A stretch of 64,000 bases of DNA. Source: Actinomycetes bacterium (GTDB lineage Bacteria > Actinomycetota > Acidimicrobiia > Acidimicrobiales > Ilumatobacteraceae). The stretch spans positions 124,001 through 188,000 of the forward strand of contig JANYCT010000040.1 in the NCBI GenBank assembly GCA_025360105.1, in the 5' to 3' direction. The notes beneath the pieces are model-generated. The model was not told the DNA's origin, did not search any database, and worked only from the letters and a program-made list of their open reading frames with translations. This document shows positions 23,791 to 33,394 of this stretch, piece by piece. Both the position numbers and the translations under genes were made by a program. Each line of letters starts with the position of its first letter. Positions within the stretch are counted from its first letter, which is position 1.

Positions 23791-23991
23791 ATGAAGGTGC
23801 TGCTCAGAAACCCGCGTCGCGAACTCGACATCGCAGGTCCTCGCCGCGTCCACGCGCTCCTCAACGATCTGCAATTGAATCGCGAATCCCATCTGGTGAT
23901 CCGCAATGGCACACTCGTCGCGAGCGACGAGGAACTCAGCGCCGATGACGTTGTCGAGATCCGCCCGGTCATCAGTGGTGGCGCACAGTGA
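23791..23991 (+). CDS. TtuB/MoaD/ThiS-like beta-grasp sulfur-carrier (ubiquitin-like) protein
   Basis: 66 aa MKVLLRNPRRELDIAGPRRVHALLNDLQLNRESHLVIRNGTLVASDEELSADDVVEIRPVISGGAQ; GG near C-terminus; stop overlaps the next GTG start. Confidence 0.8.
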   Translation: MKVLLRNPRRELDIAGPRRVHALLNDLQLNRESHLVIRNGTLVASDEELSADDVVEIRPVISGGAQ

Positions 23992-24941
23992 AGTGTCGCG
24001 TCTGTCGCGAGCCGGCGATCATCGACGTGCCACGTCACAACGCCAACTTCTGCGCGCCGCACTTTCTCGACATGTGCCGCAAGCAGGTCCGCAAGGCAAT
24101 CGATGACTTTGAGATGCTGCAGTCCGATGACCGAATTCTTGTCGCGGTATCGGGCGGCAAGGACAGCTTGGCGATCTGGGACATGCTCATCGATCTCGGC
24201 TACTCCGCTGACGGTCTCTACATCGGTCTCGGTATTGGCGAGTACAGCGACGTCTCGGGGGAGTATGCCCGCTCGTTTGCGAACGAACGTGGTCTGCACT
24301 TGGTCGAGATTTCGTTGCGCGATGACTACGGCTACGACGTGCCCACTGCCACGCGAGCAACTCGGCGTGTGCCGTGTTCGGCGTGTGGGATGAGCAAGCG
24401 CCACCTGTTCGACAAGGCCGCGATCGACGGCGGATACACCGTGCTCGTCACCGGACACAACCTCGACGACGAAGCAGCGGTGCTGTACGGCAACACGCTA
24501 CGGTGGGAGTTGCCATATCTGGCCCGACAACTGCCCACGCTGCCCGCGCGCAACGGCTTCCCGAAGAAGGTGAAGCCCTTGGTGCGTCTCTCCGAGCGCG
24601 AGACAGCTGCGTGGTGCATCGTGCGCGGCATCGACTACCTCGTCGACGAATGCCCCATGGCTGCAGGTAATCGCCATCTTGGCTTCAAAGAGGCGCTGAA
24701 TACCATCGAGACCCAATCGCCGGGCACCAAGACAGCGTTCTACCTCAACTTCGTCGACAAGGTGGCGCCGCTGCTCAGCGCGTTCGCGCTGGGCGACGAC
24801 GTCGTGCTGGCACCCTGTGCGCGGTGCGGCGCTCCGACCACTGGCGAGATCTGTGCATTCTGCCATCTGGTCGAAACGGCGAGCGCACATGAACCGGTCC
24901 CCGTCGAGTTGGTCACCGGAAGAGGAGCGCGACGTCGATGA
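23988..24941 (+). CDS. TtuA/TtcA-type tRNA 2-thiolation protein
   Basis: N-terminal Zn ribbon CRVCREP...FCAPHF, PP-loop VAVSGGKDSLAIW, CSACG plus DECPMA cysteines, C-terminal Zn ribbon CARCGAPTTGEICAFCHLVE. Confidence 0.88.
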   Translation: MKCRVCREPAIIDVPRHNANFCAPHFLDMCRKQVRKAIDDFEMLQSDDRILVAVSGGKDSLAIWDMLIDLGYSADGLYIGLGIGEYSDVSGEYARSFANERGLHLVEISLRDDYGYDVPTATRATRRVPCSACGMSKRHLFDKAAIDGGYTVLVTGHNLDDEAAVLYGNTLRWELPYLARQLPTLPARNGFPKKVKPLVRLSERETAAWCIVRGIDYLVDECPMAAGNRHLGFKEALNTIETQSPGTKTAFYLNFVDKVAPLLSAFALGDDVVLAPCARCGAPTTGEICAFCHLVETASAHEPVPVELVTGRGARRR

Positions 24942-25789
24942 ACAGGACCTTTCAATATGGAGATCGGGTGCTCCTACTCGACAGCAAGCAGCGCCGCTAC
25001 CTCATCACTCTGAAAGAGGGCGGCGAGTTTCACAGCCACAATGGCTTTGTGGCGCACTCGCAGATCGTCGATCAGCCCGAGGGCCTGTATGTGAAGTCGA
25101 CCAAGGCATCGCCCTACACCGCATTGCGGCCGACGCTCGAAGACTTCGTCGTCGAAATGCCACGCGGCGCACAGGTCATCTACCCGAAGGATCTCGCACC
25201 GATCTGCATGCTGGCAGACATCGGTCCCGGCATACGCGTCTTCGAGAGCGGTGTCGGTAGCGGCGCACTCTCGATGACGATGCTGCGCTACGGCGCCGAG
25301 ATCGTGGGCTACGAACTGCGCGAAGACTTCGCCAACCGTGCCACCACCAACGTTCGCTCGTTCCTCGGCGAGGACGCGTTGAGCAGGTACCACGTGCAGA
25401 TCCGTGATGCCTACGACGGTATCGACGAGGCCGACTTCGATCGAGTCGTTCTCGATCTTCCCGAGCCATGGAACGTGGTGCCCCATGCCGAGAAGGCGCT
25501 ACGTCGTGGCGGCATTCTTGTTGCCTACACGCCGTCGATCACCCAGGCTGCACAGGTACGCGAGGCCTTCGCGCACAGCAGAGCATGGAACGGCGCGCGC
25601 ACCCTCGAAGTGCTGCATCGTGGCTGGCATATCGAGGGTCAGGCCGTGCGACCAGACCACCGGATGGTGGCCCACACCGGATTTTTGACGACAGCTCGAT
25701 ATCTCGGCCCCCGCCACGAGAACGTCGAAAACGGCGACAGGGCGCCGGAGCGCCCCATCGAAGAGATTCCCGACGACGCCGACGAGTGA
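24938..25789 (+). CDS. trmI: tRNA (adenine-58-N1)-methyltransferase, TrmI family
   Basis: VIYPKDLAPICMLADIGPGIRVFESGVGSGALSMTMLRYGAEIVGYELREDFA; DRVVLDLPEPW. Confidence 0.92.
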   Translation: MNRTFQYGDRVLLLDSKQRRYLITLKEGGEFHSHNGFVAHSQIVDQPEGLYVKSTKASPYTALRPTLEDFVVEMPRGAQVIYPKDLAPICMLADIGPGIRVFESGVGSGALSMTMLRYGAEIVGYELREDFANRATTNVRSFLGEDALSRYHVQIRDAYDGIDEADFDRVVLDLPEPWNVVPHAEKALRRGGILVAYTPSITQAAQVREAFAHSRAWNGARTLEVLHRGWHIEGQAVRPDHRMVAHTGFLTTARYLGPRHENVENGDRAPERPIEEIPDDADE

Positions 25790-25846: not shown

Positions 25847-26092
25847 TTACGGCTCGATGAAAATGCACTCGCCGGGGCATTCCTCGGCGGACTCGATGAC
25901 GGCGTCGAGTTGGCCGTCGGGAATGTTGGCCATGCCGTCTGCGCCCTGCGCATTGCCTTTGGCTGTTGCGTAGATCGTGGCACCTTCGCGCACATACGCC
26001 AGGCCATCATCGAGCAACGTAAAGACGTCGGGGGCGATCTCTTCGCAGAGTCCGTCGCCGGTGCACAGATCTTGATCGATCCAGACCTTCAT
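25847..26092 (-). CDS. ferredoxin, single cluster type
   Basis: MKVWIDQDLCTGDGLCEEIAPDVFTLLDDG...AEECPGECIFIEP. Confidence 0.9.
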   Translation of the reverse strand: MKVWIDQDLCTGDGLCEEIAPDVFTLLDDGLAYVREGATIYATAKGNAQGADGMANIPDGQLDAVIESAEECPGECIFIEP

Positions 26093-26239: not shown

Positions 26240-27955
26240 GTGACCGCAGCAGACGACGAGACCGCCGATGTGCTTCGGGCCGAGGTCATCGTGCTCGAGG
26301 AGGAGATCACCCATCTCCGTCACAAACTTGCCGACTCTCCAAAACGCATGCGCGCGCTCGAGGATCGGCTGCTCGAAACAAAGGGTCAGCTGGCCCATCT
26401 GACATCGCAGAACGAAAAGCTGAGCTACACACTGCGCGAGGCACGTGAGCACATTGCATCGCTGCGCGAGGAGGTCGACAAACTCACCCAGCCGCCATCG
26501 GCGTACGGAGTCGTCGTCGGCAAAAACGGCGATGGCACTGTCGACGTTCAGTCCAGCGGGCGCAAAATGCGCGTCACCTTGCATCCCGAGATCGACCACG
26601 ACGCACTCGAACGTGGATCCGAAGTCGTGCTCAACGAAAGCTTCAACGTCATCATGGCCCGCCAATCAGACAGCACGGGCGAAGTTGTGACGATCAAGGA
26701 GATCCTCGAAGACGGCGTTCGAGCCCTCGTGGTCGGACGCGCCGATGAGGAACGCATTTGCGAGCTCGCTGACGCGATTCGGGGGACGCACCTTCGACCG
26801 GGCGACTCGCTGCGGATGGACCCGCGCACCAATTTGCTGCTCGAGAAGCTCGCCCGGCCCGAGGTCGAGGATCTCCTCCTCGAAGAGGTTCCCGATATCT
26901 CCTACGCCGACATCGGTGGACTCGACACCCAGATCGAACAGATCGCCGACGCTGTCGAATTGCCCTATCTGTATCAAGAACTCTTCGCCGAGCACCGCTT
27001 ACCCGCGCCCAAGGGCATCCTGCTCTATGGGCCTCCTGGCTGCGGCAAAACGCTCATTGCGAAGGCAGTTGCCAACAGCCTGGCCAAAAAAGTGGCTGCC
27101 TCAACCGGGGGCGAGAAGGGTCGCAGCTACTTCATCAACATTAAGGGCCCAGAGCTGCTCAACAAGTACGTGGGCGAGACTGAGCGCCAGATTCGACTGG
27201 TGTTCCAGCGAGCCCGCGAAAAGAGCGAGGAGGGCTGGCCCGTCATCGTGTTCTTCGACGAGATGGACAGCATGTTCCGAACCCGTGGATCGGGCATCAG
27301 CTCCGACATGGAAAGCACGATCGTGCCCCAATTGCTCGCCGAGATAGATGGCGTCGAAGGTCTCCGCAACGTGATCGTCATCGGCGCAACGAACCGCGAG
27401 GATTTGATCGATCCGGCCATTCTGCGACCCGGACGCCTCGACGTGAAGATCAAGATCGAGCGCCCGAACGAGGTCGCTGCACAGCAGATCTTTGCGCAGT
27501 ACCTCAACGATGAGATCCCTATCGCCGCCGGCGAGCAGGTGCCCGCCATGATCGAGCGCACAGTCGACGAGATGTACCGCGACGACGAGGCCAATCGCTT
27601 CCTCGAAGTCACGTACCAAAACGGTGATAAGGAAATCCTGTACTACAAAGACTTTGCGTCGGGAGCGATGATCGAAAACATCGTCCGACGAGCCAAGAAG
27701 CTTGCGATCAAGCGGCTCATCGCCGGCGGGGCCAAGGGTGTGAGCACTCAGGATCTGCTCGACTCGATCAAGCAGGAATACAAAGAGCACGAGGACCTGC
27801 CGAACACCACCAACCCCGACGACTGGGCCAAGATCAGTGGCAAAAAGGGCGAGCGCATTGTGTTCATTCGCACCCTGGTCAACGAGGGCCGCGCCGCCGC
27901 CGATCTCGCCGGTGGGCGAGCGATAGAACGTGTGGGCACAGGGCAGTACCTGTAG
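26240..27955 (+). CDS. mpa: proteasome-activating AAA+ ATPase Mpa/ARC
   Basis: N-terminal coiled coil, OB domains, Walker [32 protein letters not shown]-terminal GQYL proteasome-docking motif. Confidence 0.96.
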
Positions 27956-27978: not shown

Positions 27979-29463
27979 ATGGCCATCGCCAAGGTATGCG
28001 GCATCGAGACCGAGTACGGCATTCAGGTTCGAGGCGCGGAGTCGAACCCGGTGGCAGCATCAAGTGTGCTGATTAACGCGTACGTCAGCGGCGTGCTGCG
28101 CACGGTGGGTTGGGACTTTCACGATGAGCATCCCGGCCACGACGCCAGGGGATTCAACCTCGAGGACGTCTTCGCCCCTGAGGTCGACTCTCAACTCGTC
28201 AACACTGTGCTCACGAATGGTGCGCGCTACTACGTCGATCACGCCCACCCCGAGATCTCGACCCCCGAATGTGTAAACGCGCTCGAGGTCGTGCGTTTCG
28301 ATCGAGCTGGCGAGGAGATCGTCAGAGCCAGCATGCATGCCGCACGGCGGCTGCTGAACGATGGCAGCGAGATCGTCACTTACAAGAACAACTCCGACGG
28401 CAAGGGCAATAGCTACGGCTGCCACGAGAACTATCTCGTCGACCGCGCCACCCCATTCGGCCGCATCGTCAGTCAGATCACCCCACATTTCGTGTCGCGC
28501 CAGGTGTATTGCGGGGCGGGCAAGGTCGGTACCGAATTCTCGGGAACGTCGTCGAAGACGGTGCCCTACCAGCTCAGCCAACGGGCCGACTTCTTCGAAG
28601 AGGAAGTGGGTCTCGAGACCACGCTCAAGCGACCCATCGTCAACACGCGCGACGAACCGCATTGCGACGCGCAGAAGTATCGCCGACTGCATGTGATCGT
28701 GGGCGACGCCAACATGAGCGAGGTGGCGACGTATCTCAAGGTGGGAACCTCGGCCATCGTGCTTGCGATGATCGAAGACGATGAGGTCGGCACCGATCTC
28801 ACTCTTGCGAACCCGGTGTCGGCCATACGCCAGATCAGTCACGACCCTTCGCTCAACCGAACCGTGCTGTTGCGCGATGGGCGCCGGGTGACAGCGCTCG
28901 AACTGCAATGGTCGCTGCTCGAGCGTGCCAAGAAATACGAGCGATCGCATGGTCTTGCCTGCGTGGGCGAGCCGGTCGGCGCAGATGTGCTCGTGCGGTG
29001 GGAAGCCGTGCTCACCGGACTCGAAGGTGACCACCAATCCGTTGCACATTGGGTCGATTGGGTGGCCAAGAAGCGGCTGATCGACGCATTTGCTGAACGT
29101 CACAACCTCCGGCAGGGCGACGCCAAACTCAAAGCGCTCGATCTGCAATACCACGACATGCGCGCTGATCGCTGCCTCGCCACCAAACTAGGACTCGAGA
29201 CGCTCGTCAGCAGCGACGAGGTGCGGATGGCAATGACCGAACCGCCCGTCACTACGAGAGCCTACTTTCGCGGCAAGTGCCTGCAGCGCTGGCCCGACGA
29301 CATCGTTGCTGCCAACTGGGACTCGATGGTGTTCGACGTGGGTCGAGATCCGCTGCGACGGGTTCCGATGATGGAACCTCTTCGTGGCACCGCAGAACAC
29401 GTTGGCCAACTGTTGGACGAGTGCACCACGGCGGCAGAGTTGTTGATGCGTTTGGACTCGTAG
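27979..29463 (+). CDS. dop: Pup deamidase/depupylase Dop
   Basis: [47 protein letters not shown], paralogous to PafA; position between mpa and pup. Confidence 0.94.
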   Translation: MAIAKVCGIETEYGIQVRGAESNPVAASSVLINAYVSGVLRTVGWDFHDEHPGHDARGFNLEDVFAPEVDSQLVNTVLTNGARYYVDHAHPEISTPECVNALEVVRFDRAGEEIVRASMHAARRLLNDGSEIVTYKNNSDGKGNSYGCHENYLVDRATPFGRIVSQITPHFVSRQVYCGAGKVGTEFSGTSSKTVPYQLSQRADFFEEEVGLETTLKRPIVNTRDEPHCDAQKYRRLHVIVGDANMSEVATYLKVGTSAIVLAMIEDDEVGTDLTLANPVSAIRQISHDPSLNRTVLLRDGRRVTALELQWSLLERAKKYERSHGLACVGEPVGADVLVRWEAVLTGLEGDHQSVAHWVDWVAKKRLIDAFAERHNLRQGDAKLKALDLQYHDMRADRCLATKLGLETLVSSDEVRMAMTEPPVTTRAYFRGKCLQRWPDDIVAANWDSMVFDVGRDPLRRVPMMEPLRGTAEHVGQLLDECTTAAELLMRLDS

Positions 29464-29518: not shown

Positions 29519-29713
29519 ATGACCGAGCGCACACAAAAGCAGAAGCCCACCCCATCTCGTACCGACGAGACGGTGGAGCAAGCACCCGCAAGCGCGCCCC
29601 AGGGCGAGAAGCTCAAAGCAGAACTCGACGACCTCCTTGATGAGATCGATGAGGTGCTCGAGACGAACGCCGAGGATTTTGTGAAGAGTTACGTGCAAAA
29701 GGGCGGCGAGTAG
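29519..29713 (+). CDS. pup: prokaryotic ubiquitin-like protein Pup (GGE C-terminus)
   Basis: 64 aa ...[33 protein letters not shown]. Confidence 0.96.
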
Positions 29714-29717
29714 TCGG

Positions 29718-30506
29718 ATGTCGATGCCGTTTTTCACGCCGGGCGACGACCCGGGATCGAGCTTTCCCGAACTGCTGCGGCGGGTCGGATTGAACACAAC
29801 TCTGCCAACTTCCGGCACCATCGATCTCGGGGTTCCACACGCGACCACATGCGTCGCTTTGCGCTACGCCGATGGAGTGATCATGGCGGGCGACCGCCGC
29901 GCGACGAGCGGCAATCTCATCAGCCACCGCAGCATGGAAAAAGTGGTGCAGGCCGACAAGTTCAGCGGTGTGGCCATCGCCGGTGCGGCCGGACCAGCGA
30001 TGGAGATGATCAAGTTGTTCCAGTTGCAACTCGAACACTACGAAAAGGTCGAGGGCACATTCCTCAGCCTCGAGGGCAAGGCGAATCAGTTGTCGACGAT
30101 GGTGCGCAGCAACCTGCCCGCAGCGATGCAGGGCATGGTGGTCGTTCCGATCTTCGGCGGATTCGATTTGCTGCGAGTCTCCGGGCGGTTGTGGAATTAC
30201 GACGTCACGGGCGGGCGCTACGAGGAGCAGGAATTCGTGGCCACCGGATCTGGCAGCTTGCACGCCGGAACCGTGATCAAGATCGCACACCGCCCACAAA
30301 TGACCCGCGACGATGCGCTGAACCTCGCCTGTCGAGCGTTGTGGGAGGCTGCTGATGCCGACTCCGCCACGGGCGGGCCGGACATCTTGCGCGGCATCTA
30401 TCCCGTGGTGGCCACCATTACCGCCCAGGGTTGGCAGCGCGTGGCCGACGACGACCTCGCTGCCCGCTACACCACTATCGCCGCCGAAATGAGGTCACGC
30501 ACATGA
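29718..30506 (+). CDS. prcB: 20S proteasome beta subunit
   Basis: Short propeptide then HATTCVALRYADGVIMAGDRRATSGNLI; predicted mature N-terminus at Thr43. Confidence 0.95.
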   Translation: MSMPFFTPGDDPGSSFPELLRRVGLNTTLPTSGTIDLGVPHATTCVALRYADGVIMAGDRRATSGNLISHRSMEKVVQADKFSGVAIAGAAGPAMEMIKLFQLQLEHYEKVEGTFLSLEGKANQLSTMVRSNLPAAMQGMVVVPIFGGFDLLRVSGRLWNYDVTGGRYEEQEFVATGSGSLHAGTVIKIAHRPQMTRDDALNLACRALWEAADADSATGGPDILRGIYPVVATITAQGWQRVADDDLAARYTTIAAEMRSRT

Positions 30507-31183
30507 GCATGCCGTACTACGTGGCACCGGAACAGATCATGAAAGATCGCGCCGATTACGCACGCAAGGGCATCGCCCGTGGCCGGGCGATGGTCGCACT
30601 TCGGTACGACAATGGCATCGCGCTCGTTGCGGAGAATCCGTCGAACACGCTGCGCAAGATCAGCGAGATCTACGACCGTATTGCTTTTGCCGGTGTCGGC
30701 AAATACAACGAATTCGACCAACTTCGCGTCGCGGGAGTTCGCGCCGCCGATCTGAAGGGCTTCCAATACAGTCGTGACGATGTCGACGCGCGCAGCCTCG
30801 CCAATGGCTATGCGCAGATGCTCGGACAGATTTTCACCCACGAGATGAAGCCGATGGAGGTGGAGATACTCGTTGCCGAGGTCGCCCATGACGATGTGTC
30901 CGATCAGCTCTTCCACATCCTCTACGACGGTACGGTCATGGACGAGCGCCGTTTCAGTGTGCTCGGAGGCGATGCCGACGCGATCTCGGCACGGCTCAAC
31001 GGGTCATGGACAGAAGGACTCTCATTACAAGCGGCATTGCACGCGGCCGTTGCCGCGCTCGCTGGCGAAGATCGTGAGCTCACGGCCGACGACCTCGAGG
31101 TGGCCGTGCTGTCACGTACCAACGGTCGGCGTTGCTTCAAACGCCTCGACGATGCCGAGGTCGGCGCGCACCTCGGCGCGTAG
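30503..31183 (+). CDS. prcA: 20S proteasome alpha subunit
   Basis: MSMPYYVAPEQIMKDRADYARKGIARGRAMVALRYDNGIALVAENPSNTLRKISEIYDR. Confidence 0.95.
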   Translation: MSMPYYVAPEQIMKDRADYARKGIARGRAMVALRYDNGIALVAENPSNTLRKISEIYDRIAFAGVGKYNEFDQLRVAGVRAADLKGFQYSRDDVDARSLANGYAQMLGQIFTHEMKPMEVEILVAEVAHDDVSDQLFHILYDGTVMDERRFSVLGGDADAISARLNGSWTEGLSLQAALHAAVAALAGEDRELTADDLEVAVLSRTNGRRCFKRLDDAEVGAHLGA

Positions 31184-31197
31184 ATGAGACGTTTTCC

Positions 31198-31968
31198 GTG
31201 AGCACCGCCAATCGGTCCATCGACCTCAACAGCGACCTCGGCGAGGGACTTGGTCAATGGCTGATGGGCGATGACGCTGCGCTCCTCGGCATCGTCAGCA
31301 GCGCCAACGTCGCATGTGGCTTTCACGCCGGCGACCCGAGCACGATGCGTCGAATCTGTGAACTCGCGACGAGTTCGGCAGTCATGGTCGGAGCCCATGT
31401 CGCGTACCCCGATCTGGCGGGCTTCGGCAGGCGCTTCATCGACATCGATCCCGCCGAATTACGCGATGCCGTCACGTATCAGATCGGCGCGCTCGAGGCG
31501 ATCGCCCGGTCCGTTGGCACTCGGGTGTCGTATGTGAAGCCACACGGGGCGCTCTATAACACGATCGTTCATCACGAAGCTCAGGCCGCGGCTGTTGTGC
31601 AGGGTGTTGTCGCATGTGGCGGCTTGCCGCTCATGGGCCTGGGTGGCTCCGCCGTGCTGCGCCTCGCGACCTCGGCCGGGCTGCGCACCGTGACCGAAGC
31701 ATTTGTCGATCGCGCATACAACCCTGACGGCACGTTGGTCTCTCGTCGCGTGCCCGGTGCGGTACTCCACGACGTGAGCGCCATCGTCGCGCGCACCATT
31801 CGCATGGTCACCGAGCGCAAGGTGATCGCGATCGAGGGCACCGAGATTCATCTCGGCTTCGAATCGCTGTGCGTACACGGCGACACCGCCGAGGCCGTTG
31901 CGATTGCCGGCGCGGTCCGCGATGGGCTTGCCGGTGCCGGTATCGCACTTGTGCCATTCGTGGTCTGA
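31198..31968 (+). CDS. pxpA: LamB/YcsF family protein (5-oxoprolinase subunit A, PxpA-like)
   Basis: IDLNSDLGEGLGQW, ANVACGFHAGDPSTMRR, VGAHVAYPDLAGFGRR, VSYVKPHGALYN; GTG start. Confidence 0.93.
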   Translation: MSTANRSIDLNSDLGEGLGQWLMGDDAALLGIVSSANVACGFHAGDPSTMRRICELATSSAVMVGAHVAYPDLAGFGRRFIDIDPAELRDAVTYQIGALEAIARSVGTRVSYVKPHGALYNTIVHHEAQAAAVVQGVVACGGLPLMGLGGSAVLRLATSAGLRTVTEAFVDRAYNPDGTLVSRRVPGAVLHDVSAIVARTIRMVTERKVIAIEGTEIHLGFESLCVHGDTAEAVAIAGAVRDGLAGAGIALVPFVV

Positions 31969-32035: not shown

Positions 32036-33394
32036 ATGGAGCGACGCATCTACGGACTCGAGAACGAGTACGGCGTCACGTGCACCTTGCGTGGCCAGCG
32101 CCGTCTCAGCCCCGACGAGGTCGCCCGGTACCTGTTCCGGCGTGTCGTCAGCTGGGGTCGCAGCAGCAACGTGTTTCTCCAGAACGGCGCACGGTTGTAT
32201 CTCGACGTTGGTTCGCACCCCGAGTACGCCACGCCCGAGTGCGACTCGCTCTACGACCTGGTCGTGCACGACAAAGCGGGGGAGCGCATCCTCGAGAGCT
32301 TGGTCGATTCGGCTGAGCAGCGCCTCCGAGAAGAGGGCATCCGCGGCACCATCTATCTGTTCAAGAACAACACCGACTCTGCGGGCAACAGCTACGGGTG
32401 CCACGAGAACTACCTCACCAGTCGGCGTGACGACCTTGGCCACTATGCCGAGGTGCTCATCCCGTTCTTGGTGAGCCGGCAGATTTACACGGGTGCCGGC
32501 AAGGTATTGCAAACCGCGCGCGGACCGGTGTACTCGATTGCGCAACGTGCCGAACACATCTGGGAGGGCGTTTCCTCGGCGACGACGCGCAGCCGGCCGA
32601 TCATCAACACGCGCGACGAGCCACACGCCGATGCCGAGAAGTACCGTCGTCTGCACGTGATCGTGGGCGACAGCAATATGAGCGAATACACCACCTTCGT
32701 CAAAGTCGGTGCGGCGGCGTGCATGTTGCGAATGGTCGAGGACCCGCAAGTGGTACTGCGCGATATGACCCTGGAGAATCCGATCCGGGCCATCCGCGAG
32801 ATCAGCCACGACATCACGTGTCGGCGCAAAGTGAAACTCGCAAACGGGCGCGAAGTCAGCGCACTCGACATCCAACGCGAATACCTCGACCGAGCGTTGC
32901 GCTATGCCGACACGAAGGGCTTCCCCCCGCTCGAACAACGCGCCCTCGAGATGTGGGAGCACTGTGTCAGCACCATCGAGAACGATCCGCTGAAACTTGA
33001 TCGCGAGGTTGATTGGGTGATCAAACACAAGCTCATCGAGGCCTATCGCGCCAAGCACGACCTCTCGCTCGGACATGCACAGGTGCAGCTGCTCGATCTG
33101 CAATACCACGACGTCAGCCGCACCCGCGGCGTGTTCTACAAGATGCAGGACCACGGCATGATCGAGCGCATGTGCAGCGACGAAGACATCGAGACTGCGG
33201 TGGATCAACCTCCCCAGACCACCCGGGCGCGCCTGCGCGGCGAGTTCATCAAGCGGGCCAAGGAGCGCAAACGCGACTACACCGTCGATTGGGTGCACCT
33301 CAAACTGAACGATCAGGCACAGCGCACCGTGCTGTGCAAGGACCCGTTCAAGAGCCGTGACGAGCGAGTCGAGAAACTGATTGCGTCACTCTGA
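32036..33394 (+). CDS. pafA: Pup-protein ligase PafA
   Basis: [77 protein letters not shown]. Confidence 0.96.

Follow-up and report, generated by a model that had tools for sequence, protein, structure and literature searches.

A ttuB-ttuA-trmI cassette beside actinobacterial Pup-proteasome genes: a probable tRNA T-loop modification operon with a predicted precursor form of its sulfur carrier

Within the window (the whole stretch of 64,000 nucleotides of DNA analysed here), the genes ttuB, ttuA and trmI probably constitute an operon for modification of the tRNA T-loop, a reading to which we give a probability of roughly 0.8 and in which all functions are assigned by sequence comparison. Consecutive genes of this cassette overlap by 4 nt, with the sequence GTGA at the ttuB/ttuA junction and ATGA at the ttuA/trmI junction, and the coordinates and start/stop overlaps at 23988 and 24938 given in the first-pass annotation proved exact. 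The cassette and its surroundings are arranged as follows:

23791..23991, plus strand: ttuB, 66-residue ubiquitin-like (beta-grasp) sulfur carrier with the C-terminus ISGG-AQ, removal of AQ being predicted
23988..24941, plus strand: ttuA, probable tRNA U54 2-sulfurtransferase with PP-loop S55-D59, Fe-S cysteines Cys130/133/222, Lys137, Asp161 and two Zn ribbons
24938..25789, plus strand: trmI, probable tRNA m1A58 methyltransferase of the Rv2118c type
25847..26092 (approximate), minus strand: single-cluster 4Fe-4S ferredoxin, antisense, between trmI and mpa
26240..27955, plus strand: mpa/ARC proteasomal ATPase, a neighbour outside the cassette
27979..29463, plus strand: dop depupylase, neighbour
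29519..29713, plus strand: pup, neighbour, 64 residues with the C-terminus GGE, named from its position and C-terminus
29718..30506, plus strand: proteasome subunit, prcB by position, neighbour
30431..31183, plus strand: proteasome subunit, prcA by position, neighbour; longest ORF, real start probably downstream
32036..33394, plus strand: pafA Pup ligase, neighbour

The proteasome subunit genes are separated from pafA by a gene for the 5-oxoprolinase subunit PxpA (31132-31968). The Pup protein of the window ends in GGE and not in GGQ; a Pup with this ending should dispense with deamidation ahead of ligation, and this step should therefore be unnecessary here.

The window TtuB, which ends ...EIRPVISGGAQ, matches the Pfam family ThiS (E=2.3e-8), and its closest relatives in the PDB are Pyrococcus SAMP2 (5lda) and Thermus TtuB (5ztb, 5gha), with E values of about 3e-6 to 8e-6. 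A beta-grasp domain, the conserved C-terminal Gly-Gly and TtuB/SAMP2 as nearest relatives are all present, and the ORF at 23791 groups with TtuB/SAMP2 and not, as the first-pass annotation had allowed, with ThiS/MoaD proteins unrelated to tRNA thiolation. The window TtuA exceeds the cut-off of Pfam TtuA_LIM_N and is matched in the PDB by T. thermophilus TtuA (5gha) at E=2e-89 and by NcsA at E=8e-22, with profile scores of 247.6 bits for TtuA, 109.8 for NcsA and 60.8 for TtcA. TilS, too, is more distant from it than TtuA. The TtuA score lies below the 450-bit cut-off of the NCBIfam TtuA equivalog NF049949, a threshold that leaves out bacterial TtuA too, the Thermus composti enzyme itself reaching only 297 bits. 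Across 27 TtuA homologues the PP-loop, the Fe-S cysteines, the essential residues and the two Zn ribbons are invariant or nearly so, and S55, D59, K137, D161 and C130/C133/C222 are invariant with identical numbering; Ser55, Asp59, Lys137 and Asp161 are essential in Thermus TtuA (PMC7138817). The third protein, which contains TrmI-like_N and GCD14 domains, corresponds in the PDB to M. tuberculosis Rv2118c (1i9g, E=4e-61) and to Thermus TrmI (1e-41). The naming of the three products as TtuB, TtuA and TrmI is thus borne out by profile and PDB sequence comparison.

It could be argued that TtuA instead modifies U34, in the manner of NcsA/Ctu1, or C32, in the manner of TtcA, and is linked to TrmI through shared expression only, given that its fold and residues are common to TtuA and NcsA and that a structure search with the model of a fused relative (see below) also returned NcsA (6scy). 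We regard this as very unlikely. Thermus entries 5ztb and 5gha ranked first in that search, TtuA stands far above NcsA and TtcA by sequence, profile and structure, the enzyme for U34 (MnmA, forming s2U34) is encoded separately in the host genome, and the gene of a T-loop enzyme, trmI, lies directly downstream of ttuA at 127 of 142 loci. A TtcA or NcsA identity was consequently dropped, and with it the s2C32 function that had been left open for the 23988 protein.

The arrangement is widely conserved. TtuA was found in 116 of 296 genomes of the window's class and in 86 of 397 genomes of the phylum, a draw that overlaps partly with the class set. In the class, ttuB-ttuA-trmI is followed by mpa with order and strand kept at 19 of 20 loci, the remaining one being cut off by the contig end; elsewhere in the phylum, 16 of 20 loci have mpa after the cassette, and the other four comprise one contig end after trmI, one pafA-like gene at that place and two loci lacking a convincing mpa. 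A scan of bacterial and archaeal genomes contributed 80 named loci to a comparison of 142 distinct TtuA loci, of which 135 have ttuB immediately upstream of ttuA and 127 have trmI immediately downstream. Conservation of the trio is far beyond chance and no local quirk. Its position beside the Pup-proteasome genes, noted in the first-pass annotation, likewise recurs in several actinobacterial classes. Outside Actinomycetota, the ttuB-ttuA pair is present in Nitrospirota, Rokubacteria, Thermaceae and Myxococcota, trmI also following it at both Myxococcota loci, and no proteasome genes were seen in the flanks (up to 6 kb each) of these non-actinobacterial pairs. The proteasome is therefore no obligate neighbour of the cassette, which has either a greater age or a greater mobility than this association. 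Within the open-access papers searched, no earlier description of the ttuBA-trmI/proteasome arrangement was found, and the novelty of the TtuB-TtuA fusion (see below) is judged against the same papers.

Although the cassette is next door to the Pup-proteasome locus, it does not abut it directly as had been proposed: at 19 of 20 loci of the window's class a minus-strand ferredoxin gene separates trmI from mpa, a gene for which no counterpart was found at the 20 loci sampled from elsewhere in the phylum. With an antisense gene in between, the cassette and the proteasome genes of the class are not simply one operon, and a transcript shared with mpa was dropped for this class. At loci of the Nitriliruptoria type, where trmI and mpa are in several cases about 90-210 nt apart, with no ferredoxin gene detected between them, a single transcript with mpa may exist.

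The cross-talk between TtuB and Pup that had been suggested on the basis of this neighbourhood is a guess by analogy, drawn from the gene order and from the co-purification of Haloferax NcsA with the proteasomal ATPase PAN-A (PMC4048286); it finds no support here, and the ferredoxin gene speaks against one transcript in the window's class. In a rival reading, TtuB would serve mainly as a protein tag read by the neighbouring Mpa and proteasome, a role favoured by the deep conservation of the neighbourhood, by the same archaeal co-purification and by the TtuB conjugates formed on TtuA and TtuC in Thermus (PMC3980101). It is nevertheless extremely unlikely, as Pup, its ligase and its depupylase are all encoded and already serve that proteasome, ttuB-ttuA, sometimes with trmI, also exists without nearby proteasome genes in the four non-actinobacterial groups, and the cassette and mpa units are split by the antisense ferredoxin. 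A joint version, with a JAMM-matured TtuB-TtuA precursor supplying TtuB both for U54 thiolation and for protein tagging (of TtuA first), and with Mpa and the proteasome recognising TtuA or its TtuB adducts, is likewise very unlikely; if true, it would couple tRNA T-loop modification to protein turnover at a point where two ubiquitin-like systems meet.

Also significant is the form in which the carrier is encoded. Gly-Gly is not the encoded C-terminus of the window TtuB, as the residues AQ follow; the tailed protein is presumably a precursor, which weakens the case for an identical form, though not that for the function. In relatives the tails after Gly-Gly measure 0 to 20 residues, with one of 120. 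Tail-free TtuB occurs at 1 of 74 loci with overlapping ttuB and ttuA and at 21 of 43 non-overlapping loci (p=2e-10 when related loci are treated as independent). The long tail, at locus L155, follows SGG, consists of near-identical repeats (GNPSGSLGVASQLLGAGSELHET) and overlaps the ttuA start. There is some support for the Gly-Gly codons doubling as the Shine-Dalgarno sequence of ttuA, in that GGA or GGG is the first Gly-Gly codon at 36 of 56 loci with two-residue tails versus 4 of 18 fusions (p=0.003, again treating related loci as independent); the window itself has GGT GGC, which matches such a sequence poorly.

At 18 of the 142 loci, from Nitriliruptoria and others, ttuB and ttuA form one in-frame ORF whose junction comes directly after SGG (for example ...EVRPVISGG-AGAAK-CSTCRATAVIE), SGG being retained in all 18. 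This in-frame Gly-Gly fusion with a flexible junction is a property of the related loci and is absent from the window itself. In 15 of the fusions (L082 assigned by eye) there is no start codon from SGG to the first Zn-finger cysteine, and zinc-fingered TtuA can therefore be made there only as a fusion, while at L061, L065 and L069 an ATG immediately ahead of the zinc finger makes a separate TtuA start possible. On the TtuA tree, in which support is by SH-aLRT only and many forks are weak, 13 of the 18 fusions fall into one clade of 14 (one member unfused; Nitriliruptoria among the named rows), and the remainder lie elsewhere, at a minimum of six state changes. Chance continuity of frame was rejected as the origin of the fusions in view of this clade and of the linkers, most of which are without start codons. 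Among the other carriers read in the fused genomes, which are part of the matches, there was no free-standing TtuB of the RPVISGG type. Modelled with AlphaFold2, the L157 fusion shows two confident domains at a mean pLDDT of 92.5, and the sole inner segment below 50 is residues 61-64, with the letters ISGG. An exposed linker would be expected to give such a pattern, which is no proof of cleavage. Loci L116, L117, L128, L143, L102 and L125 carry the names Bifidobacterium breve or Ferrithrix thermotolerans; they come from metagenome bins and sit on scattered TtuA branches of the Acidimicrobiia type, and the species names look unreliable.

In Thermus, the E1 adenylates the C-terminal glycine of TtuB and sulfur is loaded there as a thiocarboxylate, whereupon the [4Fe-4S] cluster of TtuA binds the TtuB C-terminus and Lys137 aids sulfur release onto adenylated U54 (PMC3980101, PMC7138817). 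Since the sulfur is loaded on a free C-terminal glycine, tailed and fused carriers should, by analogy, need proteolytic cutting after Gly-Gly. Precedents are the M. tuberculosis MoaX protein, inactive until cut after Gly82 (PMC4326299), Deinococcus MoaD-MoaE, cut by a JAMM (PMC8832034), and the SAMP precursors trimmed by a JAMM in the archaeon C. subterraneum (PMC6043591); in Thermus, JAMM loss cuts thiouridine by about half (PMC3980101). In the mechanism that we propose, a JAMM metalloprotease encoded elsewhere in the genome would trim TtuB after Gly64, removing AQ, and in relatives would cut the TtuB-TtuA fusion; the sole rhodanese-ThiF E1 would adenylate and thiocarboxylate the freed glycine; the C-terminus of TtuB-COSH would dock on the [4Fe-4S] cluster of TtuA, which would adenylate U54 and pass on the sulfur to give s2U54; and TrmI would form m1A58. 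The presence of trmI in the operon would be explained by the pairing of m1A58 with position 54 and by its acceleration of TtuA sulfur transfer, as in Thermus (PMC6418473).

TtuA might, however, draw sulfide from another source, and processing of the carrier would then be dispensable. On such a view the tail beyond Gly-Gly would be a harmless by-product and the fusion would work without being cut, with sulfur supplied as free sulfide or by a desulfurase and TtuB reduced to a vestigial or docking domain; it agrees with the ability of Thermus TtuA K137A to use Na2S (PMC7138817) and with the occurrence of tails mostly where start and stop overlap. The retention of SGG in every fusion, the invariance of K137, which is needed for sulfur uptake from TtuB, and the demand for cleavage in the MoaX precedent count against it, and we hold it to be unlikely, if less so than the other alternatives weighed here.

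Candidate partners of TtuB are encoded elsewhere in the host genome. A search for a TtuC/MoeB-like E1 and a rhodanese, proposed in the first-pass annotation, yielded a single E1 (rhodanese-ThiF) with a rhodanese domain for sulfur relay. There is also a single JAMM metalloprotease, with EEACG and a HSHTHTEPYPSQTD metal motif, whose PDB relatives include the Pyrococcus JAMM1 of 5lda; this entry also contains the SAMP2 chain that TtuB matches best. A candidate JAMM protease is found in every fused genome searched. A JAMM gene is nonetheless present in 57 of 60 genomes, among them most of those without ttuA; such co-occurrence therefore says little on TtuB and was dropped as proof of its processing. 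The host has two further carriers, one MoaD-like ending in VSGGAV and one SAMP1/MoaD-like ending in VAGG. The former (G000:C25:72074-72316; 6075-6317 of L099) also has residues after Gly-Gly, and the single JAMM may therefore mature more than one carrier.

With regard to the product, no match to TrmFO (TIGR00137) or the TrmA family (PF05958) was detected in the host genome, which is 96.9% complete. The s2T54 named in the first-pass annotation is thus unsupported; as the host search turned up no known C5-methylase for U54, the product expected from the gene content is more likely s2U54, although the absence of TrmFO and TrmA is not certain. Of the 44 genomes searched for TrmFO, one has a match above the cut-off, and weak PF05958 matches occur in some relatives.

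Compared with the TtuA/TtuB/TtuC s2T54 pathway of Thermus thermophilus, the system has the same families of carrier and thiolase, the full set of essential TtuA residues, a single shared E1 and the m1A58 enzyme, and ttuB is directly upstream of ttuA in T. composti too. It differs in the undetected TrmFO/TrmA, in the inclusion of trmI in the operon and the adjoining Pup-proteasome locus, and in a carrier that is tailed after Gly-Gly or fused to TtuA. Unlike Thermus, the actinobacteria concerned belong to mostly mesophilic groups. MoaX of M. tuberculosis and MoaD-MoaE of Deinococcus similarly join a ubiquitin-like sulfur carrier via Gly-Gly to the enzyme that it feeds, but that enzyme is molybdopterin synthase and not a tRNA thiolase, cleavage, required for MoaX and carried out by a JAMM in Deinococcus, is no more than a prediction for TtuB-TtuA, and the window's class has separate genes and a short carrier tail. 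The best structural relative of the window TtuB, SAMP2 in the JAMM1 entry 5lda, belongs to the SAMP system of Archaea, for which the literature passages considered here mention no thiolase fusion. From a survey of ubiquitin-like proteins in prokaryotes published in 2006, the portion considered includes ThiS-ThiG, MoaD-MoaE and other fusions but no PP-loop enzyme fusion, the term PP-loop being absent from that survey (PMC1779556). In M. tuberculosis, no ttuBA is reported ahead of Rv2118c, the orthologue of the window trmI, and a tRNA survey gives MnmA for s2U (PMC10531406).

T-loop thiolation has chiefly been known as an adaptation of thermophiles to heat, and the present loci would extend it to a large section of the actinobacteria, most of it uncultured, with unmethylated s2U54 as the predicted product. 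The TtuB-TtuA fusions would be a tRNA-thiolating addition to the few carriers born fused to their own enzyme, with cleavage predicted after Gly-Gly; eukaryotic ubiquitin is likewise made as a precursor. They also make the role of bacterial JAMM proteases directly testable with two recombinant proteins.

Two minor observations may be added. Rv2118c is presumably close to mpa, which is numbered Rv2115c. Genome G461 (locus L091), the only one with TrmFO over the cut-off, is also the sole searched ttuA genome without a JAMM match, and its TtuB is tail-free; although a single case, it offers a natural contrast.
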